Below are positions 1 through 13,277 of a DNA stretch of 24,542 bases, piece after piece (the stretch's first letter is position 1; each line of letters starts with the position of its first letter). The notes under the pieces are model-generated. The model had not been told where the DNA came from. It did no database searches and saw only the letters and a list, made by a program, of their open reading frames with translations. The translations under genes and the position numbers were made by a program. The stretch is from a virus. The stretch is from positions 1 through 24,542 of IMG/VR virus record IMGVR_UViG_3300028796_000003. The stretch is one strand, 5' to 3'.

Positions 1-1034
1 TTCTCGCCTAAATCCTCTACCGTCTTGTATGCACCAGAGAAGTCCATCGTACCTAAGTCGATGATGACTTTAATCAACGACACTACTGCGTTGATGACAC
101 TTTCGACAACCCTGTAGATCAATTGAAATGCAGTGATCGCACCGGCAAGACCGTGTCCGACAGCTTCAGAAAAACTGTGCGCACCTTGATTCGCGCCAAG
201 TGCATCAGCCGCATCACCCATGCCGAACATAGATGCGGTAGTCTCTTTGATAACGAGCTTGAACGCTTCTGTTGCAGGCACAGTGCCAACAAGAATAGCT
301 TGAATGTATTGCCGCGACTTCGATGTGAATTCAGCGTTAGCATCATTCAATCCATCGACAGATTGAATCATCTCATTATTGAGCCGCGTAGCGAATGCCG
401 TTTCATCGGCAAGCACTTTGATTGCCTTGCCTAGTTCACCGGCACCTCGACCCGCTATGGCTTGCAAGATTTCCGTCTTCTCGACGCCATCAGCATACTT
501 GCCCATCGCCACACCGAGCGCTGCAACACGCTCTGCCGGGTCCAGCTTTATAAAGTCTTCATAGTTGATGTTGATACGCGCTAACGCTCTCGCAGCCTTG
601 TCGCCTTCTTCATCAGTCGACTTGAGTATGCGCGTCATCGCATTCATGTGACCTGCCATGCCTTGCATGGATATACCGGCCACATCTGCCGCAGTCTGTA
701 GCTTCGCGATGTTGACCGCTGAAGCGCCCGTCATGTCGGCAAGGTCTGCGTAATCGCCTGCTTCCGCCATCAATGCATAGAGTTGCTTGACGGCATCAAT
801 TGCCATCTGCACACCCTTCTGAATAGCATCAGCAAAGAGAGCACCCTTGACCGCAGCCGCAGTCATTTGATCTTCGAAACTCTTTACATCACTCGCGCCC
901 TTCTTCGCGCCTTTGCCGACACCTTCGGCGGCATCTTCTGCCCTGCCTGCGGCACGCGTGAAGTTGTCCAGCGATTGCCGACCTTCATCGACCTGTCGTG
1001 AGTCGATGCCGATGCCGAGTGTTGTTATGTCCAT
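1..1034 (-). CDS. Tail tape-measure protein, N-terminal part (cut by window edge)
   Basis: An open minus-strand frame runs from ATG at 1034 to the window edge, giving about 344 residues with no stop. It begins MDITTLGIGIDSRQVDEGR, the typical opening of lambda-like tape-measure proteins. An Ala-rich helical stretch follows, then a central part rich in Ala, Met and Lys, and a hydrophobic helix (AITAFQLIYRVVESVINAVV) near the edge. Such proteins set tail length and are packed inside the tail tube with help from the G/GT chaperones, which lie directly upstream here. The start is 3 nt after the TAA of the T frame, with GAAGGG as ribosome-binding site. The full protein is probably much longer than seen. 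The role rests on the N-terminal signature and on the position after the chaperone pair. Confidence 0.88.
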   Translation of the reverse strand, partial: MDITTLGIGIDSRQVDEGRQSLDNFTRAAGRAEDAAEGVGKGAKKGASDVKSFEDQMTAAAVKGALFADAIQKGVQMAIDAVKQLYALMAEAGDYADLADMTGASAVNIAKLQTAADVAGISMQGMAGHMNAMTRILKSTDEEGDKAARALARININYEDFIKLDPAERVAALGVAMGKYADGVEKTEILQAIAGRGAGELGKAIKVLADETAFATRLNNEMIQSVDGLNDANAEFTSKSRQYIQAILVGTVPATEAFKLVIKETTASMFGMGDAADALGANQGAHSFSEAVGHGLAGAITAFQLIYRVVESVINAVVSLIKVIIDLGTMDFSGAYKTVEDLGE

Positions 1035-1037
1035 GAC

Positions 1038-1831
1038 TTACCCTTCGACATCGGCGTCGTCATCGCGCTCTTGCGGCTTGTCATCATCAGACGCTTCGCG
1101 CAAAGTCTTGTCCATGCGAACGAGTAGATCAAATTCCCATCGTGTAGGAACGATCTGCCGATTGCGAAAGAACGAGCACAACTCTGTCTCTGTGATAGCC
1201 GCAAGCCCGAAGCCCGGTGTGCGCGTTGAACTGAGACGAGAAAACCACTCCCAGAGATAATCAGTCCCAGGAGGCAACTCATGGCTTCGTAGTTCAACAA
1301 GTTCGTCAGGAGCAACACCCGTCATCCTTTCAACAACAGCAAGCGTCTCATACAGCGCTATGCCGTCTTTACCTCTTTTGCCACCGCGAGCACTGGCTTC
1401 GACGAACTCGCAGATTTTGTCGGCGAGCCCTTCAAAAAAGCCGCTTCATCCTCCAACGCGGCAAGGATGCGGTCTTTCCAACTTGGCTTCACCGCGAGTA
1501 TCTGCGTCACGCGTTCGCGCACGAACGGCGCAGCCTGACCGTTGACAGTGAAGCCAAACCAACCGACGACAACAGCAGCGGCAACCTCGAATTCATTTTG
1601 ACGCAACGTGGCATCGAGTTGCTCTGCACCTTCTTCGCTCTTCAAGTCGAAGCGTGTGCGCTTCACCGCCTGCCGACGAATGGCCTTCTGCCGCTGCCCC
1701 GAGATCGTGCGTTGATACTCGTCCGAGTCCTTGCCCACGATGATGAAGCCGTCTGTCGGTTCGCCATCTTCATCCCAGGCAATAGCAACACGCTGCGTGC
1801 CCGGTTCTTCCTGTACTTGATCTAGTTCCAT
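1038..1831 (-). CDS. Tail assembly chaperone GT, predicted -1 frameshift product
   Basis: The second chaperone frame ends at 1038 (TAA) and lies in the -1 frame relative to the gene at 1358-1831. That frame is open well upstream of its first ATG (1325): it reads GIALYETLAVVERMTGVAP across the G stop codon, which looks like real T-domain sequence and has no start of its own. The likely product is therefore G for about 150 codons, a slip, then about 110 T codons, near 264 residues. Candidate slip points in the G frame are GGC-AAA at 1382-1376 and GGTAAAG at 1373-1367. Neither is a canonical XXXYYYZ heptamer, although the A-site AAA or AAG re-pairs well in both. Lambda-like phages make G and GT in a fixed ratio to load the tape measure, whose gene follows at once. 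Confidence 0.75.
1358..1831 (-). CDS. Tail assembly chaperone G
   Basis: This 157-aa protein starts MELDQVQEEPGTQRVAIAWD. Its ATG overlaps the stop of the preceding gene (TAAATG) and has AGGAAAG as ribosome-binding site. It has an acidic N-terminus, a central block with KRTRFDLKSEEGAEQLDATL and a C-terminal block with WKDRILAALEDEA, the usual composition of the first tail chaperone in siphoviruses. Identification comes mainly from position: it lies after the tail tube region, immediately before the tape measure, and overlaps a -1 frame continuation. It is expected to act in the cytoplasm, binding tape-measure protein during tail assembly, and is probably absent from the virion. Confidence 0.78.
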   Translation of the reverse strand: MELDQVQEEPGTQRVAIAWDEDGEPTDGFIIVGKDSDEYQRTISGQRQKAIRRQAVKRTRFDLKSEEGAEQLDATLRQNEFEVAAAVVVGWFGFTVNGQAAPFVRERVTQILAVKPSWKDRILAALEDEAAFLKGSPTKSASSSKPVLAVAKEVKTA

Positions 1832-3316
1832 TTACTTTCCTGTGACGTTGAAGTCGTAGATAGTTAAGTCGCCGTTGCCGTACACCATCTCAACGCCAAG
1901 TTGAACATTGGTGCAGTATTCAGTGCCGCGCACGAATGGCTTGCCATCTTTGGCCTTGCGCGTCTGCATGTGCGCGAAGAACTTCGAGAAGTCCAAGTGA
2001 ATATTGCCGTCCGCGCCCTTCGGATGATCGTCGCCGTCGTGTTGAAAGATAATGAACTTCCAACCCGTGCGCTGTCCGCCTTTCTCTTCGTTCGCATACT
2101 TACCGGAGAGCGTTCCATTCATGAATGAATAGCCTTCGCCCGCGAAGTACACGTGATAGACAACACCGTCGATAGTGGTGTCGTGGCTATACCAACCGGG
2201 ATTGCGCCCGTTTGGATGCCGCCCATAGGTGCCCCAATTGCCCACGGGTATCATGATCTCGTGCGTGATCGACGTATTCGGGAAACCGTGCACTTGATCG
2301 GGTGTCTCTTGAAGCCAGATGTCAAAGGACAGATGCCCTCTGCCTGTTGCAGTGGTCTTCTTCCACTTCAAGTCGGCGACGATTGAACCGTCAGGCATGC
2401 CCAGGCGCTTAGGCAGATGATGCCCAGGTGCACAACTCGAAGGCACGCGTCGAATGACCGAGCCGCCCTTCGGTTGCCACTCGCGCACGACATCTGTCGG
2501 CGCACCGGCAGGCGGATTCGGCACCGTGACGCCATCAGCCGCACGCACAGCAACGACCCAGCCGGGATATTGATCCGGACCTTGCAGCCCAGGTGGCGGA
2601 CCGTAGATCGCGCAGGGATAGCCCTTGACTTCACCGTATGCCGGATTGTCATTGACCTTCGCGCCCGATTGATCGAACTCGGGCCACTTCCACTTGATGC
2701 GGAAAGCGATAGCGCCCGATGAAGAAGGCGTCAGCGCTCGCTCGACTTCTTGCGTGTACTGATGCGACGCGCCGCCTTCGGATAATCCACGAGAGCCCCA
2801 GCGGTTATCGTAAATCCAGAACTTGCCGACTTCGAGCATGTCGCCGGGATGTCGAGCCATGTTGGCAATGTCAGGCACGCCTTGTGATGGTGGCGGTGCC
2901 GGTGAAGGTCCAGGCGCAGGAGATGGCGACGGTGCTGCCGCACGTGGATCGGATGAATTCTCCCATTGATTCACGTTCCACCTCCACCAACCGCCCGCCT
3001 CATTCGTCTGATAGATCGCGCCGCCGAAATACAGCAACGTCTTCACGTTCGCCGATATGGTTGCCGTGCCATTGCGTTGAATGACACCGTCGAGAACCGT
3101 CCACTTGTGCCCGAAGCCGTCGACCAATAGCACATTGGGCGGTATCGTTGCGCCATTCGGACTCTCAGACGGGACCGCAGGCGGTGCCGGTGTCGGTGAT
3201 GGTGCAGGAGTGGGCGACGGCGCAGGCGACGGCGCAGGCCCAGGCGACGCAGAAGCGGTGAACGTACCTGTGAACGTCCCGACGAACGTACCTGTGAGCT
3301 TGTCGCCTTCGGCCAT
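1832..3316 (-). CDS. Modular tail-region protein with C-terminal GH12 cellulase-like domain
   Basis: This 494-aa protein has a short N-terminus with repeated GTF triplets (residues 8-19), then a Pro-rich PAPSPTP linker (24-50). A compact module (about 54-124) follows, with VVDGFG-like, RNG, LLYFGGAIYQ and GGWWRWN motifs; it resembles a small module often attached to secreted glycosidases. A second Pro linker (126-144) leads to a catalytic-type domain (about 160-494). That domain carries the landmarks of glycoside hydrolase family 12: YDNRWG near 169-174, FDIWL at 331-335, HEIMI with the presumed nucleophile E353, LDFSKFFAHM near 441-450, and VQLGVEMVYG with the presumed acid/base E476. GH12 enzymes cleave beta-1,4-glucans by a retaining mechanism. 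The gene sits between the tail tube and chaperone genes with a good AGGAG site, so a virion-borne enzyme is likely but inferred. The true substrate is unknown. Confidence 0.75.
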   Translation of the reverse strand: MAEGDKLTGTFVGTFTGTFTASASPGPAPSPAPSPTPAPSPTPAPPAVPSESPNGATIPPNVLLVDGFGHKWTVLDGVIQRNGTATISANVKTLLYFGGAIYQTNEAGGWWRWNVNQWENSSDPRAAAPSPSPAPGPSPAPPPSQGVPDIANMARHPGDMLEVGKFWIYDNRWGSRGLSEGGASHQYTQEVERALTPSSSGAIAFRIKWKWPEFDQSGAKVNDNPAYGEVKGYPCAIYGPPPGLQGPDQYPGWVVAVRAADGVTVPNPPAGAPTDVVREWQPKGGSVIRRVPSSCAPGHHLPKRLGMPDGSIVADLKWKKTTATGRGHLSFDIWLQETPDQVHGFPNTSITHEIMIPVGNWGTYGRHPNGRNPGWYSHDTTIDGVVYHVYFAGEGYSFMNGTLSGKYANEEKGGQRTGWKFIIFQHDGDDHPKGADGNIHLDFSKFFAHMQTRKAKDGKPFVRGTEYCTNVQLGVEMVYGNGDLTIYDFNVTGK

Positions 3317-3340
3317 AGCTGTTCTCCTGTGTGTTTGAAA

Positions 3341-4567
3341 TTACGAAGGAACAACCGCGCTGTCTTGAAGCTCGATTGTGGTTGCGTTCGCCACGAGTGT
3401 CGGTCCGCCGACATCGTTATACAGCGCGACGAAGTTATACGTGCGCTTGAGCCCTGTTTCAACGTCATCAGGCGTGCTCGAATTGAGCTTTACCTTGTGC
3501 AACGCGAACGTGTTGAACTCCGCTGTGTCTGCGTTGCTTGCCGCAAGTGCCGACACGATGCTCGTCTCGACTTCATCGTCGTATAGATCGGGAATTTCTG
3601 CGCTGTCATAGTAAGCCGTGAAGCTACCGCTCGCCATCAGCTTACCCGTGAACACGTCGGGCCGGATGTTGTCGCCGACGACAGGGTCAGCAACCGCGCC
3701 GCGAGCGTCGAGATTCAACGAGAGATCAGTCACCGTACCGCGTCGTGTGCCGTTCACGATCAACGCACCGCCTGCGGCAACCATGACGCCGGTTGTCGTT
3801 TCATTCACCGGAGTGGTGAAGTATCGCGTCACATCCTTCGATTGATCCAGGCCCAGGAATGACCAATCAAGACCGGCGTTGCCCGACCCAGGCAGACGCA
3901 CGTTCACCGATGCGGCCTTGCAGTCCTGATTGCGTTGACTGCGCGGCACTTCGGGAAACCATTCTTCAGCGGTGTAGTAGATGTCGGTGTGCCCCGTCTC
4001 AGGCACAAACGTGATGCCACCTGGGAACATGAACGAGCTTGCCGGGACCGCTGTTTCAGTGACAGGCGCTTTGCGATTGAGCGGTATCACTGTGAGCGTC
4101 GTTGCTGTCGGCACACCGACGATCAGCATGTTCCTGCGCGAGCCCGCAGCAAGGCCCGCAATCGGACGAATGACGCGCCCGATCTTCGCACCGTCTGTGA
4201 GCCACGAGCCCGTCGTGCGTGTGATGGTGTACGTCGGGCCGGTGCCCGAAACACTCGCCGTTATGCCGGTGATGTTCGCAATCGCGGTGAACTCGCGCAT
4301 CAGCAACGCAGCGAAGAAGTCCGCGTATGTGCCAGGAGAAAACAGCGCAGACAGCGAGCCGTTGACTGTCACTGCGCCATGACGCGACGACATCAATTGC
4401 TTGCGTGATGTTTGCTCGGACTCGGTTGTGTACGACTCTTTCGAGCGGTCGAATGTCGACGTGTCGCGACGTATGATCTGCCCACCTGTGCCAGCGACAG
4501 CGAGTGTGCCCTTCGCAGTTTGCCGCTTCATGATTAAGAGCTTATTTGCACCCTTTGCGATTGCCAT
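3341..4567 (-). CDS. Major tail tube protein
   Basis: This 408-aa protein begins MAIAKGANKLLIMKRQTAKG, the usual opening of a phage tail tube family. It contains DTSTFDRSKESYTTESEQTS near residues 35-55 and RHGAVTVNGSLSALFSPGTY near 63-82. The rest is rich in beta strand and in Thr, Ser, Val and Gly. It is longer than lambda-type tube proteins; residues about 95-190 (Thr-rich, TGPTYTITRTTGSW) look like an inserted beta domain that could be exposed on the tail surface. The start has GAGGA 7 nt upstream. It follows the tail terminator gene and precedes the GH12-like gene, in the standard order of a siphovirus tail module. Subunits would stack into the central tube around the tape measure. Confidence 0.85.
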   Translation of the reverse strand: MAIAKGANKLLIMKRQTAKGTLAVAGTGGQIIRRDTSTFDRSKESYTTESEQTSRKQLMSSRHGAVTVNGSLSALFSPGTYADFFAALLMREFTAIANITGITASVSGTGPTYTITRTTGSWLTDGAKIGRVIRPIAGLAAGSRRNMLIVGVPTATTLTVIPLNRKAPVTETAVPASSFMFPGGITFVPETGHTDIYYTAEEWFPEVPRSQRNQDCKAASVNVRLPGSGNAGLDWSFLGLDQSKDVTRYFTTPVNETTTGVMVAAGGALIVNGTRRGTVTDLSLNLDARGAVADPVVGDNIRPDVFTGKLMASGSFTAYYDSAEIPDLYDDEVETSIVSALAASNADTAEFNTFALHKVKLNSSTPDDVETGLKRTYNFVALYNDVGGPTLVANATTIELQDSAVVPS

Positions 4568-4597
4568 GATTGTGTCCTCAAAGAACGACGTTGATCT

Positions 4598-5008
4598 TTA
4601 ACTACTTACTTGCGCTTGCCAGTAAATAGTCACCGGAACTTTCCACTGTCCCTCATCGGGCACGCCACTCGCGACAGCAGGTATACGAACGATTTCCGTT
4701 ACGACACCGCCTTCGATCAGAGTTGTGCCTCGACGAAAGTGCCTACGCAATGCGTCGACTCGATTCTCAGCGTCCCTTGGACCCTTACCCTGCGGATAGC
4801 ACAACGCAACTTGAAGAAAACCTTGCTCGATATAGGTGAGCGTATCCATCATCTCGCCGTTAGGCTCATTGGGCACGAGCTTCGCCTCTTGATACACCGA
4901 GCCATCAGCCGGTGGCGAGAACCCCACGTTATCCCATGACGTAGGCAGAGCCGGTGCAAGAGCCGCAAGATGCTTCTCAAGGGCTCGACGTATTTGCGGC
5001 AAGCTCAT
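4598..5008 (-). CDS. Tail terminator (tail completion) protein
   Basis: This 136-aa protein starts MSLPQIRRALEKHLAALAPA and has WDNVGFSPP near residue 25, then VYQEAKLVPNEPNG and GFLQVALCYPQGKGP. The layout matches the DUF4128 family of phage tail terminators: an N-terminal helix, a central beta sheet and a conserved F.QV.L.YP.G.G element. The C-terminal VPVTIYWQAQ strand also fits. Such proteins cap the finished tail tube and join it to the head. The ATG overlaps the stop of the upstream gene (ATGA-type overlap at 5005-5008), which suggests coupled translation. The tail tube gene follows 31 nt downstream. Confidence 0.8.
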   Translation of the reverse strand: MSLPQIRRALEKHLAALAPALPTSWDNVGFSPPADGSVYQEAKLVPNEPNGEMMDTLTYIEQGFLQVALCYPQGKGPRDAENRVDALRRHFRRGTTLIEGGVVTEIVRIPAVASGVPDEGQWKVPVTIYWQAQVSS

Positions 5009-5424
5009 TTGAGACTCTTCACCGCTGCCGCGATGTACGCTTCATAGCGTTGCACCGTCAGGCGCACGATACCCGGTGGCGACGGTGCCTGCTTCGACCA
5101 ACCGTATTCCAGACGCCTAGCGTATGGCAATGAGTTAGTGATGTAGACGACACCGCCCGCTTGCACATCACCAACCGCAGCGGTGATACGTGGAACAGAT
5201 ACCGACCCGACCGCACCGAAGCCGTCGTTTTTATCGACCGCTTCAATCGTCGCTGTATTCGGCGAGCCGATGCCGAGCATCCAGTTTGCGCGAAACCGGC
5301 CTGTGTCCACTGGCGACATGCGAGTGATAGCAACGCTCATGTCAATGACAACTTTGCGCACGATCAAATCCATTGACAAGTTTGTCTTGCGCTGGAATGC
5401 CCTGATGTCGTCAGAAAAACTCAT
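5005..5424 (-). CDS. Neck / tail completion protein, HK97 gp10-like
   Basis: This 139-aa protein begins MSFSDDIRAFQRKTNLSMD. It contains RMSPVDTGRFRANWMLGIG near residues 35-53, the hallmark 'P.DTG..R..W' of the HK97 gp10 type, and YITNSLPYARRLEYGWSKQA near 94-113 with the conserved Y...LEYG. The C-terminus is one long helix (VRLTVQRYEAYIAAAVKSLK). Proteins of this family sit at the head-tail junction. The start overlaps the previous stop by 4 nt and the end overlaps the tail terminator start by 4 nt, so this is a tightly coupled connector block. Confidence 0.82.
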   Translation of the reverse strand: MSFSDDIRAFQRKTNLSMDLIVRKVVIDMSVAITRMSPVDTGRFRANWMLGIGSPNTATIEAVDKNDGFGAVGSVSVPRITAAVGDVQAGGVVYITNSLPYARRLEYGWSKQAPSPPGIVRLTVQRYEAYIAAAVKSLK

Positions 5425-5792
5425 GTGCCTCTCGCTTGTACTTCGTGCAGCACGACTACGCCAGCAGGTTGTAGCGGGCGTGACACCACCACTTCGAGAC
5501 GATATACGCCAAGCGTGATGACATCACCGCTCTGCGGCATCGTGCCCAAATCAGGAGCAATAAGCACGCGACGATCTCCACTCTGTATGAGAGAACCGTC
5601 GACCTCACGTTGCTGATAGTCGAATTCAACACCGCTTGCACTCCATACTTCGACAGCTTCTTCGTCAACGACGCCGCTGTCAGGGTCATAACCGCCGCCT
5701 TCACCTGGGCGAGACAGAAGCACGAGTTGCCCTAGCTCATTGAGCAAGTCAACCGCTGCTTGTGCGAGTTCGCCATACAGTGCAGACGCCAT
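5421..5792 (-). CDS. Head-tail joining / head closure-like protein
   Basis: This 123-aa protein reads MASALYGELAQAAVDLLNEL, then LVLLSRPGEGGGYDPDSGVV, DRRVLIAPDLGTMPQSGD and YRLEVVVSRPLQPAGVVVLH. An N-terminal helix followed by a small beta barrel containing a PQ.GD..tlg.Y.l.vv element is typical of phage head closure or stopper proteins. I chose ATG at 5792, which forms a TGATG stop-start overlap with the upstream gene, over a GTG one codon earlier. Order (capsid, connector, this protein, gp10-like, terminator) fits the role. No catalytic residues are visible. The family assignment is less certain than that of its neighbours. Confidence 0.7.
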   Translation of the reverse strand: MASALYGELAQAAVDLLNELGQLVLLSRPGEGGGYDPDSGVVDEEAVEVWSASGVEFDYQQREVDGSLIQSGDRRVLIAPDLGTMPQSGDVITLGVYRLEVVVSRPLQPAGVVVLHEVQARGT

Positions 5793-6244
5793 CACGCTCT
5801 CTCAAAGGTCACAGGCCCATAGCCTGCGCCGGTATACACAAGACCGAAGAGCAAGTCTTCGATCACAGGAAACTTCATTTGCCCGCCATACGAAGGCGTG
5901 CCGTACCGCAGCGTGAGCGGTCCGACAGTCTTTTGCACAACCGGCGCAGCATCGACATCGCGATACAAGCTACCGTTGATGTGGCGGATCGCTGCTTCTG
6001 CCGTCGCCGCCGCGACGTTAGGATGCACACGCTGCACATTCGGGTGCACATCAAAATCCCATAGCGCATCTGATACAAGACGGCGCGAGAACACGTATTG
6101 CGTCCCGCGCCGTAGTGCTGCTTCGCGCATGGGAACGGTTTCGTTAATCCACTGCGCGTATCCAAGACTCGCTAGGTAGACATTTGCGTCCTCTAGGCTG
6201 ATGAAGCTGTCATAGCCAGGAGCCGGATAGACGGCTACAGGCAT
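5792..6244 (-). CDS. Head-tail connector protein, DnaT-like family
   Basis: This 150-aa protein starts MPVAVYPAPGYDSFISLEDA. The motif Y.SF.SL.DAN.YLA..G...W and the following REAALRRGTQYVFSRR helix are shared by a widespread phage protein group that databases often label 'DnaT-like ssDNA-binding protein'. Its place after capsid genes and before neck genes argues for an adaptor that docks on the portal rather than a replication factor. The C-terminus (GPLTLRYG, FPVIEDLLFGL) is beta-rich then helical, as in other adaptors. The stop overlaps the next start as TGATG. A GAGG site lies upstream. Confidence 0.75.
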   Translation of the reverse strand: MPVAVYPAPGYDSFISLEDANVYLASLGYAQWINETVPMREAALRRGTQYVFSRRLVSDALWDFDVHPNVQRVHPNVAAATAEAAIRHINGSLYRDVDAAPVVQKTVGPLTLRYGTPSYGGQMKFPVIEDLLFGLVYTGAGYGPVTFERA

Positions 6245-6250
6245 GATGCT

Positions 6251-6604
6251 TCAATCCTCAACCTTCTTCCAACCCGAGCGCTCATGCATCTTCGCGTTGG
6301 CAACGCTCATCTCTGCTTCGACGCCGTCAGCACTCACCATGCGCACAGTCGCTTCAGCGTCTTCGGGAACGGTGCTGTCGATGACGGCAGTCATACCGAA
6401 TTCTTCATTCGGTCCCTGCGACGGTGCGCCGTTGGGTGCTTCGCTCGCGTATGCAGGCAATGCCTTCATGCCTTGCCGTTCAACATCGGACGACGGCTTG
6501 ATGTCGTTGGCAATCTTCTCGACGAGCGCTGCTTCATCGTCAATGATGGCATTGCTCGATTGCCCTCTCGACTTGTCCGTCGTCGCTTTCTTTGCAGTGT
6601 TCAT
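6251..6604 (-). CDS. Small structural-region protein of unknown function
   Basis: From ATG at 6604 this encodes 117 residues (MNTAKKATTDKSRGQSSNAI...). It is acidic and low in complexity in the middle (PAYASEAPNGAPSQGPNEEF) and ends ANAKMHERSGWKKVED. I recognise no catalytic motif or family. The frame is open upstream to 6667, but that extension would cross a strong terminator hairpin (6621-6646). The site AGAGGCTCAAG before ATG 6604 supports the shorter start. It lies between the capsid block and the connector block, where small head-associated or assembly proteins are common. Confidence 0.65.
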   Translation of the reverse strand: MNTAKKATTDKSRGQSSNAIIDDEAALVEKIANDIKPSSDVERQGMKALPAYASEAPNGAPSQGPNEEFGMTAVIDSTVPEDAEATVRMVSADGVEAEMSVANAKMHERSGWKKVED

Positions 6605-6620
6605 CTTGAGCCTCTCGATC

Positions 6621-6646
6621 AAAAACCTCCGGACCGAAGTCCGGAG
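6621..6646 (-). terminator. Intrinsic terminator with UUCG tetraloop inside the late operon
   Basis: Read on the minus strand, CTCCGGAC, loop TTCG, GTCCGGAG form a perfect 8-bp GC-rich stem capped by the very stable C(UUCG)G tetraloop. G and TTTTT follow at once. This is a complete Rho-independent terminator pointing along the late operon. It lies between the capsid-side genes and the connector/tail genes. It would lower tail gene expression relative to capsid unless read through or antiterminated. A weaker second inverted repeat (GACCGA / TCGGTC) lies just upstream at about 6655-6672. Confidence 0.82.
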
Positions 6647-6681
6647 TAACTTACGACCGACCAACATCGGTCACAGGAGAT

Positions 6682-6715
6682 CACTTCTTCAGCGGGTTCA
6701 CTTCTTCAGCGGGTT
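6682..6715. repeat. 17-bp tandem duplication at a stop codon
   Basis: The 17-bp unit CACTTCTTCAGCGGGTT occurs twice in exact tandem (6682-6698 and 6699-6715), followed by CACTT as the start of a third copy. On the minus strand it covers the last codons (NPLKK) and stop of the 81-aa gene. Because 17 is not a multiple of 3, the second copy is not read in frame and lies after the TGA. It looks like a recent slippage duplication. Confidence 0.9.
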
Positions 6716-6943
6716 CACTTGCGGCTCGTCGCCGCCCGGTGCCTGCGATGGGTTGCCAGGATCAAGACCTTCGTCTTCCGGTGGCTCGGGCACATCTTCA
6801 CCCTTTGCGCGACGCGCCGCACGTTCTGCCTTCGCTTCGGGCGAGTGACCGCGCCCAGGTTCGCCGCTCTTGCCGGGTGCGCCGCCGCCTTGACCGGGTG
6901 CATTGCTTCGGCCTTGCGAGCCGGGTTCGTCTGGTTTTGCCAT
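6698..6943 (-). CDS. Gly/Pro-rich low-complexity small protein
   Basis: From ATG at 6943 this encodes 81 residues, MAKPDEPGSQGRSNAPGQGG, continuing with Gly, Pro, Ala, Glu and Arg repeats and ending NPLKK. It is almost certainly disordered. AAGGAG 8 nt upstream fixes this start over one 18 codons earlier. No family is recognised. Disordered small proteins between capsid and connector genes can be minor head proteins or assembly aids, but nothing here shows a function. The 3' end carries a tandem duplication, and the operon terminator lies 52 nt downstream. Confidence 0.7.
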   Translation of the reverse strand: MAKPDEPGSQGRSNAPGQGGGAPGKSGEPGRGHSPEAKAERAARRAKGEDVPEPPEDEGLDPGNPSQAPGGDEPQVNPLKK

Positions 6944-7003
6944 GAATAAATCTCCTTGATGTTTCAGGATTCGAGTTTTAGCTCGATGCGAAGTCACGGC
7001 ACA

Positions 7004-7609
7004 TTAGCGTGCGTTGTGACGGTCGACCAATTCCGCGAGTTCTGCCTTCTTCGCATCGGGCGGGAACTGCACTCCCTTGGCCTTGAGTGCTTCTCTCATT
7101 TCGTCAGCGGTCTTGCCTTCAGAAGCACGACCACCTTGCCCGGTGTCTTCTTCTTTGGCTTGCTGGAAACCCATGCGCGGATCACCAGAGCCCGCACCCT
7201 TGCCGCTCTGCGCTTCGTCGAGGTCCAGCGAGCGACCCGATGTCGTCATCGGGCGCATTGCCGTGGGCGTCGATGCATCGGGCACCGCCTTGACAACTTG
7301 ACTGCGGCCATACTTCTCCGCTGACAAGCCGGTCTGCAACTCGGCGTCATCGCCTTGCAGTTGCGGCACGTTGACCTTGCCTTCGTCTTCAGACGAGCCA
7401 GCATCACCCGGCTTGCCGCCGAACAGACGCGGATCGAATTGCAGGCCGATCAACTTGCGCGACTCTTCGTCGATCTCGTAATCGCATCCAGGCGTCGAGA
7501 GAACTTCGCGTGCGTCGATGGGTTCGAAGTATTGAAGACCATCGGTGGCTTCTAACTTCTTCGTGAGCGATTCATCATCGCCGGTGTAGCGTAGTGCAAT
7601 TTTGGGCAT
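7004..7609 (-). CDS. Head-region protein with C-terminal HeH/SAP-like helix motif
   Basis: From ATG at 7609 (AGGGGA site upstream) this encodes 201 residues beginning MPKIALRYTGDDESLTKKLE. The N-terminal about 70 residues look folded (DGLQYFEPIDAREVLSTPG, YEIDEESRKLIGLQFD). A long hydrophilic middle, rich in Gly, Ser, Asp and Glu, looks disordered. The last about 35 residues (TADEMREALKAKGVQFPPDA then KKAELAELVDRH) fit a HeH/LEM-type two-helix motif, which in phages often binds DNA or protein. It follows the decoration gene by 10 nt. It may be a minor head or head-completion protein; function is not established. Confidence 0.72.
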   Translation of the reverse strand: MPKIALRYTGDDESLTKKLEATDGLQYFEPIDAREVLSTPGCDYEIDEESRKLIGLQFDPRLFGGKPGDAGSSEDEGKVNVPQLQGDDAELQTGLSAEKYGRSQVVKAVPDASTPTAMRPMTTSGRSLDLDEAQSGKGAGSGDPRMGFQQAKEEDTGQGGRASEGKTADEMREALKAKGVQFPPDAKKAELAELVDRHNAR

Positions 7610-7619
7610 GTGTTTCCCC

Positions 7620-8000
7620 TTACGGCTTGCCGATGAAGATCGTGCTGTTGATCGACGGTGTCGCGCCGCTCGTGTCGTTGAACGCACGAATGTAGCGATA
7701 GTAGGTGCCGCCGATGTCGTTGTTGAACGGGATTTCAGTGCGACCCGTGGCGGTGATGGCACGAGCCGCGAGTTCAACCGGCGTGCCGAAGCCAATCGTC
7801 AGCGACCCTTGGATGCGCACGGTGTACGTGTTGCCGCCAGAGGTGTCGATTGCGCTTGTGTCGATGACGGCAACACCGTCCATGTGCGCGTCGCCAACGT
7901 CGACGACGCGAGCAGAACCGCCAACTTGAGCAGCAGCGTCGACTGTCACGACGGCTGCGTCTTTCAAGAGCAGTAAATTGTCATAGGTGCGAGAAGCCAT
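7620..8000 (-). CDS. Capsid decoration/cement protein, Bbp16-like
   Basis: This 126-aa protein begins MASRTYDNLLLLKDAAVVTV. It is beta-rich, with DMDGVAVIDTSAID-like, YTVRIQGSLTIGF and YYRYIRAFNDTSGATPSINS stretches. The N-terminal YDNLLLLKD.A and the size resemble the Bbp16 decoration protein of Bordetella phage BPP-1-like capsids, also encoded just after the major capsid gene. Such proteins bind the outside of the shell at local symmetry axes and stabilise it. AAGGAA lies about 8 nt before the ATG. The match is from memory, not from a search. Confidence 0.75.
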   Translation of the reverse strand: MASRTYDNLLLLKDAAVVTVDAAAQVGGSARVVDVGDAHMDGVAVIDTSAIDTSGGNTYTVRIQGSLTIGFGTPVELAARAITATGRTEIPFNNDIGGTYYRYIRAFNDTSGATPSINSTIFIGKP

Positions 8001-8031
8001 GTCACATTTCCTTTGTGCTTGTAGCTATCGT

Positions 8032-8958
8032 TTATGCAACGATAGCGAGGTTGCCGATGTGACGAATGCGAGCGGCTGCGCGACCATGTTCGATGACGAT
8101 GCCGTTGTACCATTCGACGCGAGTGCGGAACACTGGCGCGGCTTGCAACTCGCCGAGATCGCGCACATCCATCGGGCCATTCTGAATGCCCGACACGCGA
8201 CCCGAGCCGATGCTCAAGATATACATCGACGTTGCTGTTGCTGCGCCGCTTGCTGCCGCTTCGTCATAGGGCAGGATGTCGTCGCCGCCATTCGCGCCGT
8301 ATGCAACGAGAATCGGAAGATCGTTGTAGTTCGTGATGCGCCGCCCGAATGCATCGGCGGTGTACGTCACGAAGCCCGCGACAGCCGTCGTGCGCGCCGC
8401 TGCGGTGAACTTCCGGCGCAGACCCTTCGACATCAGATAGTGCGTCGGGTTATCGACGGTGTCGGTTGCGTCGTCGATCACACCGAGCGATAACGCTGCG
8501 CCGCCCGCAGTCGCGCCCGCTGAAATGACTTGCGCGTTCACGAGACGCTTCTGCAAGCCGTCGAATTCACGCGGGTTCGTGGATGAATCACCCTTGATGA
8601 ATTTTTGCGTCCAGCCCGCCGCGAGCGATTTCACTTTCATGCGCTCGTGAGTTGCGCGCACGCCTGCGCCTTGCGTCTGGATGATGAAGCGGTCCACATC
8701 CAAATCGCCGCCCGCGATGACGAGCGATTCAGTTTGCGGATTGAGCACGCCGGACGATTCCGGAAATGCTTCGTTCACACCCCGGAAGCTGATGCCCGGT
8801 AGTGAGCCTTCGCGGTTGTACTTGAGTGCGTTGCCAGCGATGTCTTCGAACGGCAGGACTTGCAGAATATCTGATTCCTGCGCAAACATTTCGATGACAG
8901 CCGAACGCACGATGTCGCCAGAGTTCAGCTTGGCGGCTTCGACGAGGGTCAGTGCCAT
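8032..8958 (-). CDS. Major capsid protein (HK97-fold, GP7-like)
   Basis: This 308-aa protein begins MALTLVEAAKLNSGDIVRSA and contains EMFAQESDILQVLPFEDIAG, SLPGISFRGVNEAFPESSG and a long region with GDLDVDRFIIQTQG. It ends FRTRVEWYNGIVIEHGRAAA RIRHI. The pattern (an N-arm, a P-domain-like 'LP...FRGVNE', and a C-terminal 'V.W..G..I.....AARI.N' strand) matches HK97-fold major capsid proteins of the GP7 type found in several proteobacterial siphoviruses. It lies between the scaffold-like and decoration genes, as expected. AAGGTGAAAC precedes the ATG. About 400 copies would form the shell. Confidence 0.88.
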   Translation of the reverse strand: MALTLVEAAKLNSGDIVRSAVIEMFAQESDILQVLPFEDIAGNALKYNREGSLPGISFRGVNEAFPESSGVLNPQTESLVIAGGDLDVDRFIIQTQGAGVRATHERMKVKSLAAGWTQKFIKGDSSTNPREFDGLQKRLVNAQVISAGATAGGAALSLGVIDDATDTVDNPTHYLMSKGLRRKFTAAARTTAVAGFVTYTADAFGRRITNYNDLPILVAYGANGGDDILPYDEAAASGAATATSMYILSIGSGRVSGIQNGPMDVRDLGELQAAPVFRTRVEWYNGIVIEHGRAAARIRHIGNLAIVA

Positions 8959-8985
8959 TGTTTCACCTTAAAGGATGTTCACCCT

Positions 8986-9798
8986 TTAGCGTGCAGCACC
9001 GTGCGCTTGTTGGGCGCGGAACTGTGTGATGCGTGCTTCGGGCGGGAGTTTGGAAAGATCAGCACCGCCCTTAGCGTTACCGTTGGTGCCTGTTGCACCG
9101 GAACCCTGTGCCCTCGGCCAGAGATGGGGAGCGTTCTCGCGCAGAGATGCCGCCCACTCTTCGGGCGTGAGGGGCGTCTTGCCGTCTTTGCCGAAGACAA
9201 TTGTGTCGCCGCTCATGGCGATAACATTGCCGTCGTCGTCGATAGTCCAGCCCGCGCCCTTAGCGCGAAGCACGATGTCTTCTGTTGCTTCAGGCAGTGC
9301 GCCTGCCTTCTGCGATGCCTTGATGATTGATTCAGCCATCGCACGTTCTGCGAGCTTGTCGGCTTTTGCTTTCAGCTTGTCGGCGCGTGCAGTTTCAGCC
9401 TTGACCTTCTTATCCCAATCCGCCGCCATGCGCTCGGTGCGTTTGTTCAACACTTCATCGAGCTTGCCCTGTTTGATTAGCGTCGCTTCTTCATCATCCA
9501 CGAAGCGTTTGAGAATGGTGCGAACAGCTTCAGGGTCGATGCCGTCGAACTGCGCGAGATTGGCCTTGAGTTCTTTCTCTTTGCCGATCAACTCGCCGTT
9601 CTTCGCCTTCAGTCCGGCGACTTGCTCACTGACTGCGGCCTCGATCATGCCTTGCACGATGGGCTTCAGGTTCTCGGGTATCTGAGGGGGAGCAGGGGGA
9701 GCAGGGGGAGCAGGAGGGGGAGGGGGAGAACCGCCGCCGCCACCGCCTTCAGGATCAGGGTAGCGATACTTCATCAAGACATTGCGAGTCAAGAACAT
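8986..9798 (-). CDS. Capsid scaffolding-like protein
   Basis: This 270-aa protein begins MFLTRNVLMKYRYPDPE, followed by six glycines, SPPPPP and a run of APP repeats (residues 24-38). The middle is a long charged coiled coil (about 50-155, rich in Lys, Glu, Ala and Leu, e.g. AAVSEQVAGLKAKNGELIGK). A small folded part (WTIDDDGNVIAMSGDTIV) follows, then a flexible tail ending ITQFRAQQAHGAAR. This architecture and the place directly before the major capsid gene indicate a scaffold that fills the procapsid and leaves before packaging. The Pro/Gly start is encoded by the G-tract at 9686-9726. GGGAATTGACGT precedes the chosen ATG; an ATG 8 codons on has no site. Confidence 0.8.
   Translation of the reverse strand: MFLTRNVLMKYRYPDPEGGGGGGSPPPPPAPPAPPAPPQIPENLKPIVQGMIEAAVSEQVAGLKAKNGELIGKEKELKANLAQFDGIDPEAVRTILKRFVDDEEATLIKQGKLDEVLNKRTERMAADWDKKVKAETARADKLKAKADKLAERAMAESIIKASQKAGALPEATEDIVLRAKGAGWTIDDDGNVIAMSGDTIVFGKDGKTPLTPEEWAASLRENAPHLWPRAQGSGATGTNGNAKGGADLSKLPPEARITQFRAQQAHGAAR
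9686..9726 (+). repeat. G-tract repeat with quadruplex potential
   Basis: The plus strand carries five runs of exactly five Gs (9686-9690, 9695-9699, 9704-9708, 9716-9720, 9722-9726) separated by 1-7 nt. Three of them sit in 9-bp AGCAGGGGG-type repeats. This satisfies the usual G-quadruplex rule (four runs of three or more Gs with loops of 1-7). It is the template strand for the scaffold-like gene, whose mRNA therefore carries the C-rich complement and encodes the APP repeats. Confidence 0.8.
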
Positions 9799-9801
9799 AC
9801 G

Positions 9802-10077
9802 TCAATTCCCTTCGGGTGTGATTGATTGTACGTCCCAAATCATCGGCACAGTGATCCCACTCATCAAGCAGTCATAACAGATGCATGCATACACAACCGT
9901 GCCGCCAGTGGGACCGCGTCGACATTGCACGGCACCATTGACCACACGCGCATAAGTTTGCGAGCCGCATCGACGACACCGCAATTGATCTGCGCGTGCG
10001 GGCAGCGACTTCGCACGCAATAGCACAGCGACCTTCGGCGAAGGTTGCCTTGCCACTGCGAGTGAGACGCTGCACAT
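9802..10077 (-). CDS. Small zinc-ribbon-like protein
   Basis: This 91-aa protein begins MCSVSLAVARQPSPKVAVLL. It has CRRC at residues 34-37, C52, and CICYDC at 65-70, followed by LMSGITVPMIWDV. Two cysteine pairs separated by about 30 residues, with basic residues between them, suggest a zinc ribbon, broadly like the Com-type zinc proteins of phages. No enzyme motif is visible. The ribosome-binding site is weak, so translation may depend on coupling with the secreted-protein gene that ends 4 nt upstream. Position before the scaffold gene gives no clear job. Confidence 0.62.
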   Translation of the reverse strand: MCSVSLAVARQPSPKVAVLLRAKSLPARADQLRCRRCGSQTYARVVNGAVQCRRGPTGGTVVYACICYDCLMSGITVPMIWDVQSITPEGN

Positions 10078-10081
10078 TTCA

Positions 10082-10609
10082 TCAGGTAGGTGTGCAAGAG
10101 ACGAGACTCGGCGACACGGGACCGTTCTGCGTCGGCGCAGAAGTGGTGCAAGTTGTCGAGAGAACAGTGACGCCGCCTTGTTGCACCGTGAGTGTCATCG
10201 ACGTGAATTTGATGTCGGTGATGCGCTCGGTCCAATGCGAATTTGGACAGTCGGGCGCACCGGCAATGACTGCATCGGGCGGTGTCGTCGTCACGCTGAA
10301 GCCGACGTTGCCATTCTTGAATTGCTCGTCTGGAATTGCCACCGAGCCCGACAGCGTCACGGGTTGCGGGACTTGACCGGGCGGCTGATTCTGCCCGCTA
10401 GGGTTCGTGCATGTCGCGGTGATCGTGCCCGATGCAGAGAGCGTGACGGCGATGTCACCTTCGCCCAGGCCCGCGAGCGAGCCCGCTGCCGTGAGGGATA
10501 AGCCGTTGTCAATGAGCGTCGGGTTTCGGTTCTGTTTGAAGTGCACGTTCGCGGCTAGCGCCGCCGTCATCAGAGTTGCAGTGATAAGGGCGAGCGCAAT
10601 CTTCAGCAT
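10082..10609 (-). CDS. Secreted protein with signal peptide and four cysteines
   Basis: From ATG at 10609 (AGGA 8 nt upstream) this encodes 175 residues. MLKIALALITATLMTAALA is a classic signal peptide, probably cleaved near residue 19. The mature part starts ANVHFKQNRNPTLIDNGLSL and holds AAGSLAGLGEGDIAVTLSAS, TATCTNPSG, GAPDCPNSHWTERI and STTC...SC. The four cysteines could form two disulfides in the periplasm or outside. I recognise this as a widespread uncharacterised family of proteobacteria, common in genomes and prophages; the conserved parts are the NG..L...G.LAGLG.GD and DCPN..WTE segments. It stands first in the leftward block, next to the early/late divergence point. It could be a cell-envelope or lysogenic-conversion type product, but that is a guess. 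Confidence 0.78.
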   Translation of the reverse strand: MLKIALALITATLMTAALAANVHFKQNRNPTLIDNGLSLTAAGSLAGLGEGDIAVTLSASGTITATCTNPSGQNQPPGQVPQPVTLSGSVAIPDEQFKNGNVGFSVTTTPPDAVIAGAPDCPNSHWTERITDIKFTSMTLTVQQGGVTVLSTTCTTSAPTQNGPVSPSLVSCTPT

Positions 10610-10815
10610 GTTTGTTCCTAGTTGAGTTGATACAGCACGAAGCCACGAGACATTACGCCATGTCCCAGGCGAACACAAGACAAATTCCTGCCACATCGAA
10701 CGATTCTCGTCAAATACCCGATTAAAAAGCTCAGGATATGTCTCGTTACGCGTGACCCGGCTTAATTTCTCGTGCTACAATTGCGACATCAGCAACCCAC
10801 AACAGAAAGCACACC
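10610..10815. promoter_or_regulatory. Divergent intergenic region between late and early blocks
   Basis: These 206 bp separate the leftward secreted-protein gene from the first rightward early gene. On the plus side, GTGACC (10752-10757), an 18-bp spacer and TACAAT (10776-10781, preceded by TGC) form the first early promoter. Its leader ends ACAACAGAAAGCACACC before ATG 10816. A GTTACGCG half-site (10746-10752) recalls the palindrome of the downstream promoters, but the second arm is missing. On the minus side TTGACG and TTGTCT occur, yet neither has a convincing -10 at good distance. A promoter for region 3 is expected here but cannot be fixed by eye. Confidence 0.55.
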
Positions 10816-11382
10816 ATGAACAGCAATCACACCTTCACCCGAGTTCGCGTCATCGAAGACGAAGCAGCCTACGAAGCCGCCATCAAGCGTCGCATCAAAG
10901 AAGCCGCCCGCGCCAAGTTCTTTCGCGAGAACACCGACGCACAGGACGTGATCGACTGCCTCTATAGCGCCTCTAGTTGGTCCGAGTTCGCGAAGTCCTT
11001 GCACAACTCGTTCGAAGACCGTGGCTCACTGTCACCGGCTCAATTGAACGCAGCACGCGGCATGCTTGAGAAGGCCCGCGCAAAGGCACAGGCGAAGATC
11101 GACGCACGCAACGCACCGGCAAGCTCTGGACATCACGTGTCGACCGTCGGACAGCGCGAAGAGTTCACGCTCACGATCAACAAATTGATGGAACTAGACG
11201 GCATGTATGGCATGACCTACATCCACATCATGACCGATGCGAACGGCAACGCATTTGTCTACAAGGGCAGCAAGGAACTCGGCGAACAAGGCGCAACCGT
11301 CACGGTGAAAGCCACTGTGAAAGAACACGGTGCGTATAACGGTGTCGCACAAACCATCATCAACCGCCCGAAGGCTGTATGA
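10816..11382 (+). CDS. First early gene; possible OB-fold C-terminal domain
   Basis: This 188-aa protein begins MNSNHTFTRVRVIEDEAAYE. The N-terminal part is helical and charged (AIKRRIKEAARAKFFRE, then SSWSEFAKSLHNSFEDRG and SPAQLNAARGMLEKARAKAQ). The last about 60 residues are beta-rich (TYIHIMTDANGNAFVYKGSK, ATVTVKATVKEHGAYNGVAQ, TIINRPKAV). The C-terminal 'G..V..KATVKEH..Y.G..QT.I.RPK' element recurs at the end of many phage early and replication-linked proteins and resembles a small OB-like nucleic-acid-binding fold. No catalytic motif is seen. It has its own promoter, and a terminator directly follows its stop. Confidence applies to the gene; the fold is inference. Confidence 0.85.
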   Translation: MNSNHTFTRVRVIEDEAAYEAAIKRRIKEAARAKFFRENTDAQDVIDCLYSASSWSEFAKSLHNSFEDRGSLSPAQLNAARGMLEKARAKAQAKIDARNAPASSGHHVSTVGQREEFTLTINKLMELDGMYGMTYIHIMTDANGNAFVYKGSKELGEQGATVTVKATVKEHGAYNGVAQTIINRPKAV

Positions 11383-11384
11383 AT

Positions 11385-11417
11385 AAAAGAAGAAGGGCAC
11401 TTGCTCTTCTTCTTTTT
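11385..11417 (+). terminator. A/T-flanked terminator after the first early gene
   Basis: AAAAGAAGAAG (11385-11395) and CTTCTTCTTTT (11406-11416) pair perfectly over 11 bp around a 10-nt loop, and the 3' arm runs into a five-T tract. It begins 3 nt after the stop of the first early gene. The stem is AT-rich and so weaker than the UUCG one at 6621-6646. Its symmetry would allow some action in both directions, because the opposite strand also ends in a T tract. The next promoter follows immediately. Confidence 0.65.
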
Positions 11418-11431
11418 ATCTGTGCTATACT
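11400..11431 (+). promoter_or_regulatory. Early promoter 2 (no palindrome)
   Basis: TGTGC then TATACT (11426-11431) forms an extended -10. The 3' arm of the preceding terminator fills the usual spacer, and TTGCTC (11401-11406) is a poor, distant -35. The leader CACACCAACAGAAAGACAGAA leads to ATG 11458. This copy keeps the extended -10 and leader of the family but lacks the operator palindrome, so it may escape the control that acts on the others. Confidence 0.65.
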
Positions 11432-11457
11432 AGCGGCACACCAACAGAAAGACAGAA

Positions 11458-11658
11458 ATGAACAAGATCAGCAAAAACTCGCTCACGATGACTCTCGGCA
11501 CCGCCGCTGACATGGTCGCACGCGCCGACAAGTTCGAACCGCACCAACTCGCCCGCGCTCGCGTCGTCGTCGCCTATTGGGCAGCGCTGCGCGCCAAGCA
11601 ATCCCGCGCACGGGCTGCAAAAAAGAATTTTGCATCAGGTGCTTGCGTTACGCGATAA
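11458..11658 (+). CDS. Small basic early protein
   Basis: This 66-aa protein begins MNKISKNSLTMTLGTAADMV and is helical and basic (ARARVVVAYWAALRAKQSRA), ending KNFASGACVTR. No family is recognised. Its last eleven codons (from AAG AAT TTT GCA on) are spelled by what elsewhere is the non-coding start of a promoter cassette, AAAAAGAATTTTGCA. Its TAA lies in the right arm of the next palindrome. The ancestral stop, where neighbours have TAA before AAAAGAATTTGCA, seems to have become GCA, extending the protein. AGAAAG lies 6 nt before the ATG. Confidence 0.75.
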   Translation: MNKISKNSLTMTLGTAADMVARADKFEPHQLARARVVVAYWAALRAKQSRARAAKKNFASGACVTR

Positions 11659-11670
11659 CGCTGCTATAAT
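11643..11670 (+). promoter_or_regulatory. Early promoter 3 with palindrome
   Basis: TTGCGT (11643-11648), a 16-bp spacer and TATAAT (11665-11670, preceded by TGC) form the promoter. The spacer holds GCGTTA, CGCGA, TAACGC, a 6-bp-arm version of the family palindrome. The stop codon of the 66-aa gene is inside the right arm. The leader is CACACCAACCGAAAGACAG before ATG 11697. Confidence 0.78.
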
Positions 11671-11696
11671 TCATTCACACCAACCGAAAGACAGAA

Positions 11697-11993
11697 ATGA
11701 ACAACGCAGTCGCAAACACCATCCTTCAGCAACTCGGCGGCAATCGCTTCATCGCCATGACCGGCGCGAAGAACTTCGTCGGCACCGAGAACGCTCTTCA
11801 CTTCCAACTGCCGAACCGCAAGATCAACTCTGTCGTCGTGCGCCTCGACGCCACCGACACTTACACGGTGATGTTCAACAAGCGCACGAACATGGGCGTG
11901 AACATCAAGCAAGTGTCAAGCGAGTCCGGCGTCTATGCCGACAAACTGCGCGCTGTCTTCGAACAACACACGGGATTGTTCACGAGCCTGTAA
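11697..11993 (+). CDS. Conserved-looking early phage protein, unknown function
   Basis: This 98-aa protein begins MNNAVANTILQQLGGNRFIA and holds MTGAKNFVGTENALHFQLPN, INSVVVRLDATDTYTVMFNK and NIKQVSSESGVYADKLRAVF. The 'GGN.F..MTGAKNF......L.F.LP' opening is shared by many short phage and plasmid proteins of unknown function that I recall but cannot name. It looks like a small mixed alpha/beta fold. It has its own cassette promoter (11643-11670) and is followed by another palindromic promoter. Confidence 0.82.
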   Translation: MNNAVANTILQQLGGNRFIAMTGAKNFVGTENALHFQLPNRKINSVVVRLDATDTYTVMFNKRTNMGVNIKQVSSESGVYADKLRAVFEQHTGLFTSL

Positions 11994-12001
11994 GATTAAC
12001 G

Positions 12002-12026
12002 GCACCGAGTATGCTATACTCGGTGC
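12002..12026 (+). promoter_or_regulatory. Early promoter 4, palindrome shifted onto the -10 box
   Basis: GCACCGAGTA (12002-12011), TGCTA, TACTCGGTGC (12017-12026) form a 10-bp-arm palindrome with a 5-bp centre. Here the -10 TATACT (12015-12020) lies inside the palindrome, whereas in the other cassettes it follows it. The outer bases GCACCG and CGGTGC are the same as in the family, but the inner GTTA/TAAC is replaced by AGTA/TACT. The leader ACACCAACAGAAAGCAGAGA leads to ATG 12047. Confidence 0.75.
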
Positions 12027-12046
12027 ACACCAACAGAAAGCAGAGA

Positions 12047-12295
12047 ATGACAGCACGCAAATCCTGGGACGAGATCATGGAACGCAAGCACATCACGCGC
12101 ATGAATCGCGACGACAAGACCGTCGACAAGATCGAGCGGCTCGAAGCGAAGGCACTGCCGCTGATCGGCGAGCTATGCAGAGAAGGCAAGACGGTCTACT
12201 ATGTAAACTGTCACCCGCTCTATAAGGGAAAGACCCGCGAAGGCACGCAGGCCGATCTGTTAGCATTCCTGATCCGCAATAAATACGTGATCTGA
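12047..12295 (+). CDS. Small early protein, unknown function
   Basis: This 82-aa protein begins MTARKSWDEIMERKHITRMN and continues DKTVDKIERLEAKALPLIGE, TVYYVNCHPLYKGKTREGTQ and ADLLAFLIRNKYVI. It is charged, with an N-terminal helical half and a short beta-hairpin-like YYVNCHPLY stretch. No known family. ATG 12047 is preceded by AGAAAGCAGAGA and by its own promoter. Its TGA overlaps the ATG of the HNH endonuclease gene (TGATG at 12293-12297), so the two are translated together. Confidence 0.8.
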   Translation: MTARKSWDEIMERKHITRMNRDDKTVDKIERLEAKALPLIGELCREGKTVYYVNCHPLYKGKTREGTQADLLAFLIRNKYVI

Positions 12296-12780: not shown

Positions 12781-12828
12781 TTGCGTTACGCCGAAACGCC
12801 ATGCTATAATTCGTCATCGCAACGAATT
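12781..12828 (+). promoter_or_regulatory. Early promoter 5, class II with downstream inverted repeat
   Basis: TTGCGT (12781-12786), an 18-bp spacer and TATAAT (12805-12810, preceded by TGC) make a standard promoter. The spacer carries a weak GCGTT...AACGC palindrome. AATTCGT (12808-12814) and ACGAATT (12822-12828), separated by CATCGCA, form a second inverted repeat over the start-site region. The leader ends CCTAGAAAGCAAATC before ATG 12846. Confidence 0.78.
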
Positions 12829-12845
12829 AACCTAGAAAGCAAATC

Positions 12846-13235: not shown

Positions 13236-13247
13236 AAAAGAAAGGCG

Positions 13248-13277
13248 CACCGTTACTCGATAACGGTGTGCTATACT
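13248..13277 (+). promoter_or_regulatory. Early promoter 6 with palindrome
   Basis: CACCGTTA (13248-13255), CTCGA, TAACGGTG (13261-13268) form the palindrome. One extra T then separates it from GC and the -10 TATACT (13272-13277). No good -35 is visible. The A-rich AAATAAAAAAGAAAGG directly upstream, right after the previous stop, fits the A-tract of the family. The leader ends GAAACAGAAAGCAGACC before ATG 13313. Confidence 0.75.

Follow-up and report, generated by a model that had tools for sequence, protein, structure and literature searches.

What does a terminator hairpin do in the middle of a phage late operon, with capsid genes before it and connector and tail genes beyond it? The phage is a soil phage, and the window, by which we mean the whole stretch of DNA that was analysed, comes from IMG/VR, where its record is 24,542 bases long; a 59,217-base record covers all of it except a dozen bases, in two pieces, at 99.99% and 100%. 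An earlier note on this DNA had described, at 6621-6646, a perfect 8-bp stem closed by a C(UUCG)G loop and followed by TTTTT, pointing in the direction of late transcription between head genes and connector/tail genes. Reading the sequence again bears out every part of that description, and the gene context drawn from PHROG and Pfam confirms the strand and the place, at the boundary between the capsid genes and the connector/tail genes. One refinement is needed, a single G between the stem and the T-run. Read on the minus strand from 6646 to 6627, the hairpin is CTCCGGAC-TTCG-GTCCGGAG, followed by the G at 6626; 3' of the U-tract come GATCGAGAGG, with the Shine-Dalgarno sequence (SD) of the next gene, and then the ATG at 6604. 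The features discussed here are collected in Table 1.

Table 1. Features at and around the head-to-tail boundary of the window, in the order of late transcription
Feature	Positions	Strand	Remarks
Head scaffolding protein	8986..9798	-	PHROG 206
Major capsid protein	8032..8958	-	PHROG 212, Pfam GP7
Gene without assigned function	7620-8000	-	Between the major capsid protein gene and the HeH/LEM-like gene
Protein with HeH/LEM-like end	7004..7609	-	Pfam HeH, 27.2 bits, just below the cut-off of 28.9
SD of the small gene, AGGAGAT	6950..6956	-	Putative partner of the conserved motif
Small gene, 81 aa	6698..6943	-	Charged, probably disordered; enclosed by the putative SD:anti-SD pairing
Conserved motif ATCTCCTGTG	6672..6681	-	ATCTCCT at 6681-6675 complementary to the SD of gene 6698-6943
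Hairpin H1	6655..6672	-	GACCGA/TCGGTC, 6-nt loop; between anti-SD motif and terminator
Terminator hairpin H2	6627..6646	-	8-bp stem, C(UUCG)G loop
T5 run (U-tract)	6621..6625	-	One G after the H2 stem
SD of the first gene past the terminator, GAGAGG	6611..6616	-
First gene past the terminator, 117 aa	6251..6604	-	Poorly conserved, function unassigned; ATG begins 16 nt after the U-tract
Head-tail adaptor Ad1	5792..6244	-	PHROG 477
Head closure Hc1	5421..5792	-	PHROG 161
Tail tube protein	3341..4567	-	Pfam Phage_tube_2; little upstream intergenic space for a promoter

Is the hairpin a terminator? It has the architecture of an intrinsic one, a GC-rich hairpin closely 5' of a T-run in the direction of transcription. 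Under strict criteria (8 perfect pairs, at least 4 G/C, a loop of 3-8, and 5 T after no more than 2 nt) the window has one such hairpin against a mean of 0.01 per dinucleotide shuffle, and it is unlikely to have arisen by chance, because only 3 of 300 shuffles contained one. A lax terminator scan of this half of the window showed no enrichment, with 9 sites found and 12.6 expected. A computed terminator score is positive but moderate (10.6) for the window's hairpin and negative for that of the relative L021; the U-tract is short. An Rfam scan of the window with E up to 5 gave two matches, both away from the hairpin and far under the gathering score. In our judgement the hairpin is very probably an intrinsic terminator that ends the capsid transcription unit. 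Somewhat laxer criteria pick out one other site, at 11389-11412 on the plus strand, the sole other strong terminator-like hairpin of the window.

How, then, are the genes beyond the terminator expressed? The minus-strand order is scaffold, major capsid protein, the gene at 7620-8000, the HeH/LEM-like gene, the 81-aa gene, the hairpin, the gene at 6251-6604, Ad1, Hc1, Neck1, tail terminator and tail tube. The terminator lies between the capsid gene and the connector/tail genes of the late region, as a T7-type terminator does, and not immediately after the major capsid gene, from which it is separated by 1389 nt and three genes. From the gene that begins at 6604 to the tail tube gene, the gaps in the ORF list are 6, -4, -4, -4 and 30 nt. 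A scan for sigma-70-like promoters, with other promoter types outside its scope, found one match only on the minus strand of positions 1-12500, at 8005-7977, upstream of the terminator. Because the genes after 6604 are so tightly packed and the lone match is upstream, we infer that read-through supplies the neck and tail genes, barring a promoter within a gene or one of another type. The earlier note had stated as a necessity that the downstream genes be expressed past the terminator; the claim stands as far as gene packing and the promoter scan carry it. Leakiness and antitermination, the two routes that it offered, are candidates. No phage RNA polymerase or antiterminator was recognised among the 30 proteins, part of the gene set, that were scanned against PHROGs. 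By analogy with T7-like phages, it is plausible that the terminator keeps capsid protein in excess, but the gene for the tail tube protein, which is usually also made in many copies, lies downstream.

Two further observations concern the arrangement of the window. A block of plus-strand ORFs (10816-18433) lies between the packaging/portal and the scaffold/capsid parts of the minus-strand late genes; in the relative G004 the matching late parts are about 3 kb apart. In a region of plus-strand genes, the palindrome ACCGTTAC(C/T)CGATAACGGT is repeated at 13249-13267, 13591-13609 and 17313-17331, with variants at 15074-15096 and 16990-17022, and GCTATAATC follows two of the three exact copies. These repeats have the look of a promoter and operator present in several copies; the records of two relatives, G004 and G005, lack the strict pattern.

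Do relatives keep the hairpin? The phage collection holds no close relative, the capsid relatives there being less than 60% identical. From IMG/VR, 41 loci were gathered by capsid protein and further ones by Ad1, Hc1 and capsid alignment, and bacterial genomes contributed 47 loci, mostly from cyanobacteria. The earlier note had proposed looking for the hairpin at the same gene boundary in relatives, and it is there: all 25 IMG/VR clade contigs that cover the boundary have a hairpin and T5, with the position kept and the stem pairing preserved. The window's CTCCGG-type stem is found in 24 of them, and L021, whose capsid protein is 80% identical to the window's, has an unrelated hairpin. Six identical L012-type contigs carry a two-sided compensatory stem change, A-U to C-G, and L040 has the same stem type with a different loop. 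When the viral collection was searched for the stem pattern with T5, 18 contigs gave one match each, all of them within the 25. The window's own leader occurs in four contigs (L002, L003, L004 and L044), which are perhaps the same phage. Over 6644-6605 conservation is 96-98% in 14 sequences, where flanking coding DNA is typically at 70-85%. So high a value is not peculiar to the hairpin: Ad1 attains 96-98% over its first 60 nt, and the small gene 85-94% in its middle part. A terminator scan of the whole 59,217-base record found no other site on the hairpin strand, and in each of the other two records scanned that strand has four further sites, most of them weaker. Left out of the boundary counts were L017 and L022, which end before the boundary, L076 and L083, which begin after it, and L085-L088, whose Ad1 is 31-40% identical.

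Outside the clade, 9 of 89 loci had an ORF recognisable by the HeH-gene motif together with 150 nt beyond it, and seven of the nine have an unrelated hairpin with a T-rich tail within 150 nt of the HeH-type gene's stop. As controls, the antisense strand and the ORF end gave 2 of 18, and the stretch past the capsid gene gave 7 of 84. Among the seven positives, L030 and L032 share one sequence and five fall in one group. The HeH/LEM-like gene is the final head-module gene ahead of the hairpin in several distant relatives. By inspection, L026, L027 and L042 have a hairpin past the last head gene, and in L023 a small gene of opposite orientation occupies the boundary, with a hairpin before it. That L023 ORF (7576-7935) is Q/G-rich, and the hairpin at this head/connector boundary could stop transcription from both sides. 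In a survey of 104 non-redundant loci, the clade included, 41 sense and 11 antisense sites were found in 275 kb downstream, against 14 and 22 in 263 kb upstream; hairpins noted by other means in L021, L023 and L033 escape the criteria of this survey. The terminator is a trait of part of the family and not of the whole, because L201 and L202 have the HeH-type gene without a hairpin and in most of the cyanobacterial loci whose capsid protein is related the 3 kb past the capsid gene contain no strong terminator.

Does the boundary hold anything besides the terminator? Two elements absent from the earlier description of the site lie just before it, an anti-SD motif and the hairpin H1. The motif, ATCTCCT or TTCTCCT, stands 28 nt before the terminator stem, and the SD of the small gene is 242-276 nt upstream (about 275). 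Searches of Pfam and PHROG with the small gene gave no match. TCTCCTGTG is invariant in all 11 aligned simple-form leaders, which run from the small-gene stop to the terminator, and its exact form occurs at this place in eight of the nine whole records scanned; the L011 record has a diverged motif here and a copy elsewhere, and that of L003 carries an additional copy on the opposite strand. In H1 one pair is changed on both sides in three sequences, with 93.1% of cells paired, and a different, longer hairpin replaces it in L011, L018 and L019.

The motif of the 3' UTR and the small-gene SD offer 6-8 consecutive Watson-Crick pairs in 13 of 13 sequences. Most phages have ATCTCCT/AGGAGAT as partners, L007 and L040 have GTTCTCCT/AGGAGAAC, and L012 has TTCTCCTG/CAGGAGAA. 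Duplexes with a sequence's own SD are computed at -10.74 kcal/mol versus -9.99 kcal/mol with the SDs of others (permutation p 0.008; 13 sequences, 12 of them distinct, L018 and L019 being nearly alike), and the same test with the SDs of the major capsid protein gene and of genes 7620, 7004, 6251 and 5792 gave p 0.28-0.82. L044, L048 and L050, in which the SD end is missing, were left out, as were L003, L004, L013-L016, L051 and L067, which are repeats there. Pairing is kept through changes in both partners, with one two-sided pair: the seventh pair as aligned is U-A in eight sequences and A-U in three, with L006 as the exception that breaks it. Trees of the small gene and of the HeH gene, which carry no support values, place the three A-U phages away from one another, and this makes the double change look repeated; recombination of both ends is also possible.

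RNAalifold, given the 13 aligned whole gene regions, returns the SD:anti-SD helix unprompted at a probability of 0.75-1.0, along with H1 and the terminator. Folded singly, 10 of the 13 sequences pair the SD core with a probability of at least 0.74; the exceptions are L011 (0.40) and L018 and L019 (near 0), in which the motif is placed in a hairpin loop and pairing could take the form of a pseudoknot. Pair counting on alignment A5, in which L011 is misaligned at the motif and was left so, finds 95.6% of the helix cells paired, with three two-sided-change cells, all at one pair; slid versions of the helix have 47-69% of cells paired. Shuffles that match the helix on cells paired, two-sided cells and covariation score number 5 of 500, while 344 of 500 reach its count of pairs with a two-sided change, which is one of seven. 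At 6-8 bp the helix is short, and conservation of the SD as such accounts in part for the keeping of five of its pairs. The whole gene region is no more stable than its shuffles (z -0.5). In a rough comparison of SDs with 3' flanks in three genomes, a match of at least 7 occurred in 3 of 96 SD-bearing genes, none of the three at the SD core; the crude gene picking behind these numbers omitted many genes, the small gene included.

Some neighbouring structures deserve mention on their own account. In most of the 13 sequences the small gene has hairpins, of differing sequence, in its 5' UTR, and at z -0.62 in the window they are not claimed. A third hairpin, formed by the U-tract with bases before the next ATG, is strong in L018 and was rejected, its pairs breaking, by eye, in the window, L007 and L020. 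In L021 the CTCCT of the motif pairs best with the SD of that phage's last head gene, at a probability of about 0.1, and this is not counted as support. In L042 (7769-7839) the gene past the terminator has an SD region (GGAGATT) to which an AATCTC ahead of the terminator is complementary, so that pairing there would mask the downstream gene instead, in this one sequence. A 17-bp tandem duplication at 6681-6714 of the window (minus strand) repeats the end of the small gene with its stop codon; in the clade it is found only in the window's own leader type, and it puts 17 nt between the small-gene stop and the anti-SD motif.

How might these elements work together? We think it fairly probable that the terminator ends the capsid transcription unit and that the anti-SD closes the small-gene message. 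Many of the polymerases arriving from the capsid genes would stop at 6621-6625, and a fraction would continue into the connector/tail genes; it is from architecture, position and conservation that we infer termination, its efficiency and read-through. The RNA just 5' of the terminator would be the 3' UTR of the small gene, so placed that the anti-SD would become available only after the small gene had been transcribed. ATCTCCT would then pair with its own SD some 275 nt upstream, closing the message into a loop and excluding new ribosomes; translating ribosomes would hold the loop open, and an idle message would close. Because the motif changes in step with the small-gene SD, the comparison suggests a message that folds back and limits its own translation, with repression and ribosome masking as the predicted steps. 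Read by eye, 7 of the 14 clade leaders have their stop codon within 3 nt of the motif (TCTCC), so that a terminating ribosome would cover the motif there. The terminator itself is ordinary in kind and very probably real, and that its position is conserved is informative; what is new is the covarying SD/anti-SD closure.

Might the hairpin act on the message with polymerase running on? Hairpins of the CUUCGG type between cistrons have been discussed as stability or processing elements for T4, and an intercistronic element here would, after cleavage, shield the capsid message at its 3' end and the next message at its 5' end, giving differential mRNA levels without a stop in transcription. The CUUCGG loop is very stable, H1 and H2 stand in tandem, the next SD follows close behind the U-tract, and hairpins precede the small gene in most of the 13 sequences, all of which suits such an element. 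T5, however, is kept in all 25 contigs, even beside the wholly different stem of L021, and several distant relatives have a hairpin with T at the same place; both facts point to termination, and we regard a role mainly in stability or processing as unlikely. Less likely still is an extension of our preferred reading, in which SD, anti-SD, H1 and terminator would form one RNA device, the state of the loop also setting read-through into the tail genes. Translation of the small gene would mask the anti-SD, and idle messages would lock shut; were this so, translation of the capsid operon would be the signal by which the phage tunes its head-to-tail ratio.

Could a strong terminator instead be overcome by phage antitermination? 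The λ nutR-tR1 region has a linear motif, a hairpin and a terminator in that order, and the same succession between genes here would make TCTCCTGTG and H1 a nut-like boxA/boxB site. Here, however, the motif lies in late genes, is complementary to the upstream SD and covaries with it, and no antiterminator was recognised among the 30 proteins scanned against PHROGs. The motif is at this one place, and hardly elsewhere, in eight of nine records, and no 16-mer of the leader is repeated above shuffle level in three genomes; on these two counts the nut site was rejected, and we consider it very improbable. An attenuator switch, in which the TCTCC motif would pair with GGAGA of the terminator 3' arm and its occupancy would regulate read-through, can point to CTCC/GGAG complementarity in all 11 aligned simple-form leaders, with six pairs in several. 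It was nevertheless rejected, the covariation with a sequence's own 3' arm being not significant (p 0.19 for 13 sequences; -8.35 versus -8.23 kcal/mol); the window, L007 and L012 pair more weakly, the 3' arm of L021 does not fit, and the 8-bp UUCG stem is far more stable, all of which leaves the switch very improbable. A DNA element that serves the downstream genes as promoter or operator, the terminator acting as its insulator, would suit the high conservation up to the SD and, if a promoter, would make read-through unnecessary, but it earns scant credence, as the strand has no nearby match in a scan confined to sigma-70-like promoters (the sole one in 1-12500 being at 8005-7977), none of the block's 16-mers recurs in three phage genomes more than shuffles would give, and changes in the stem preserve pairing.

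With which known systems should the terminator and the proposed message closure be compared? For T7 the relevant terminator is T-phi. For LUZ100, a terminator right after the capsid gene is called 'similar to T7' (PMC10134795). What is shared with our case is a terminator within the late structural genes that splits capsid from tail, so that the capsid message can differ from that of the tail. The present terminator differs in lying 1.4 kb and three genes past the capsid gene, in its unrelated sequence, and in a phage with no RNA polymerase of its own recognised among the scanned proteins.

For the closure, the hok mRNA is a case of fold-back inhibition of translation, and as there, the 3' end of the full-length message would pair back to the translation start region; unlike hok, the small gene has no toxin-antitoxin features that we noticed and no known 3' processing. 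The icaR mRNA of Staphylococcus aureus is closer. Its 3' UTR motif UCCCCUG pairs with the SD, with experimental support and cleavage by RNase III, and hok is named there as an analogy (PMC3868564); the 5'-3' UTR interaction is also summarised in a review (PMC5502269). Our locus likewise has, in the 3' UTR, a short anti-SD motif that could pair with its own message's SD. It differs in that the gene is a phage gene within a polycistronic late operon, that the 3' UTR is short (about 70 nt or less from stop to terminator stem), and that the putative pairing shows covariation across relatives. A narrow open-access literature search, which does not show absence in print, recognised no phage example of 5'-3' UTR pairing at an SD. 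The present case is T7-like and icaR-like in its predicted design and is counted as a member of neither class, because the terminator is not immediately after the capsid gene and the closure is a prediction from sequence.

What does the boundary tell us about these phages? A head/tail terminator that is held in place despite turnover of its sequence may be a genomic signature of the setting of structural-protein ratios, and the covarying SD/anti-SD closure would extend 5'-3' UTR control of the icaR kind to a phage operon, with comparative evidence.
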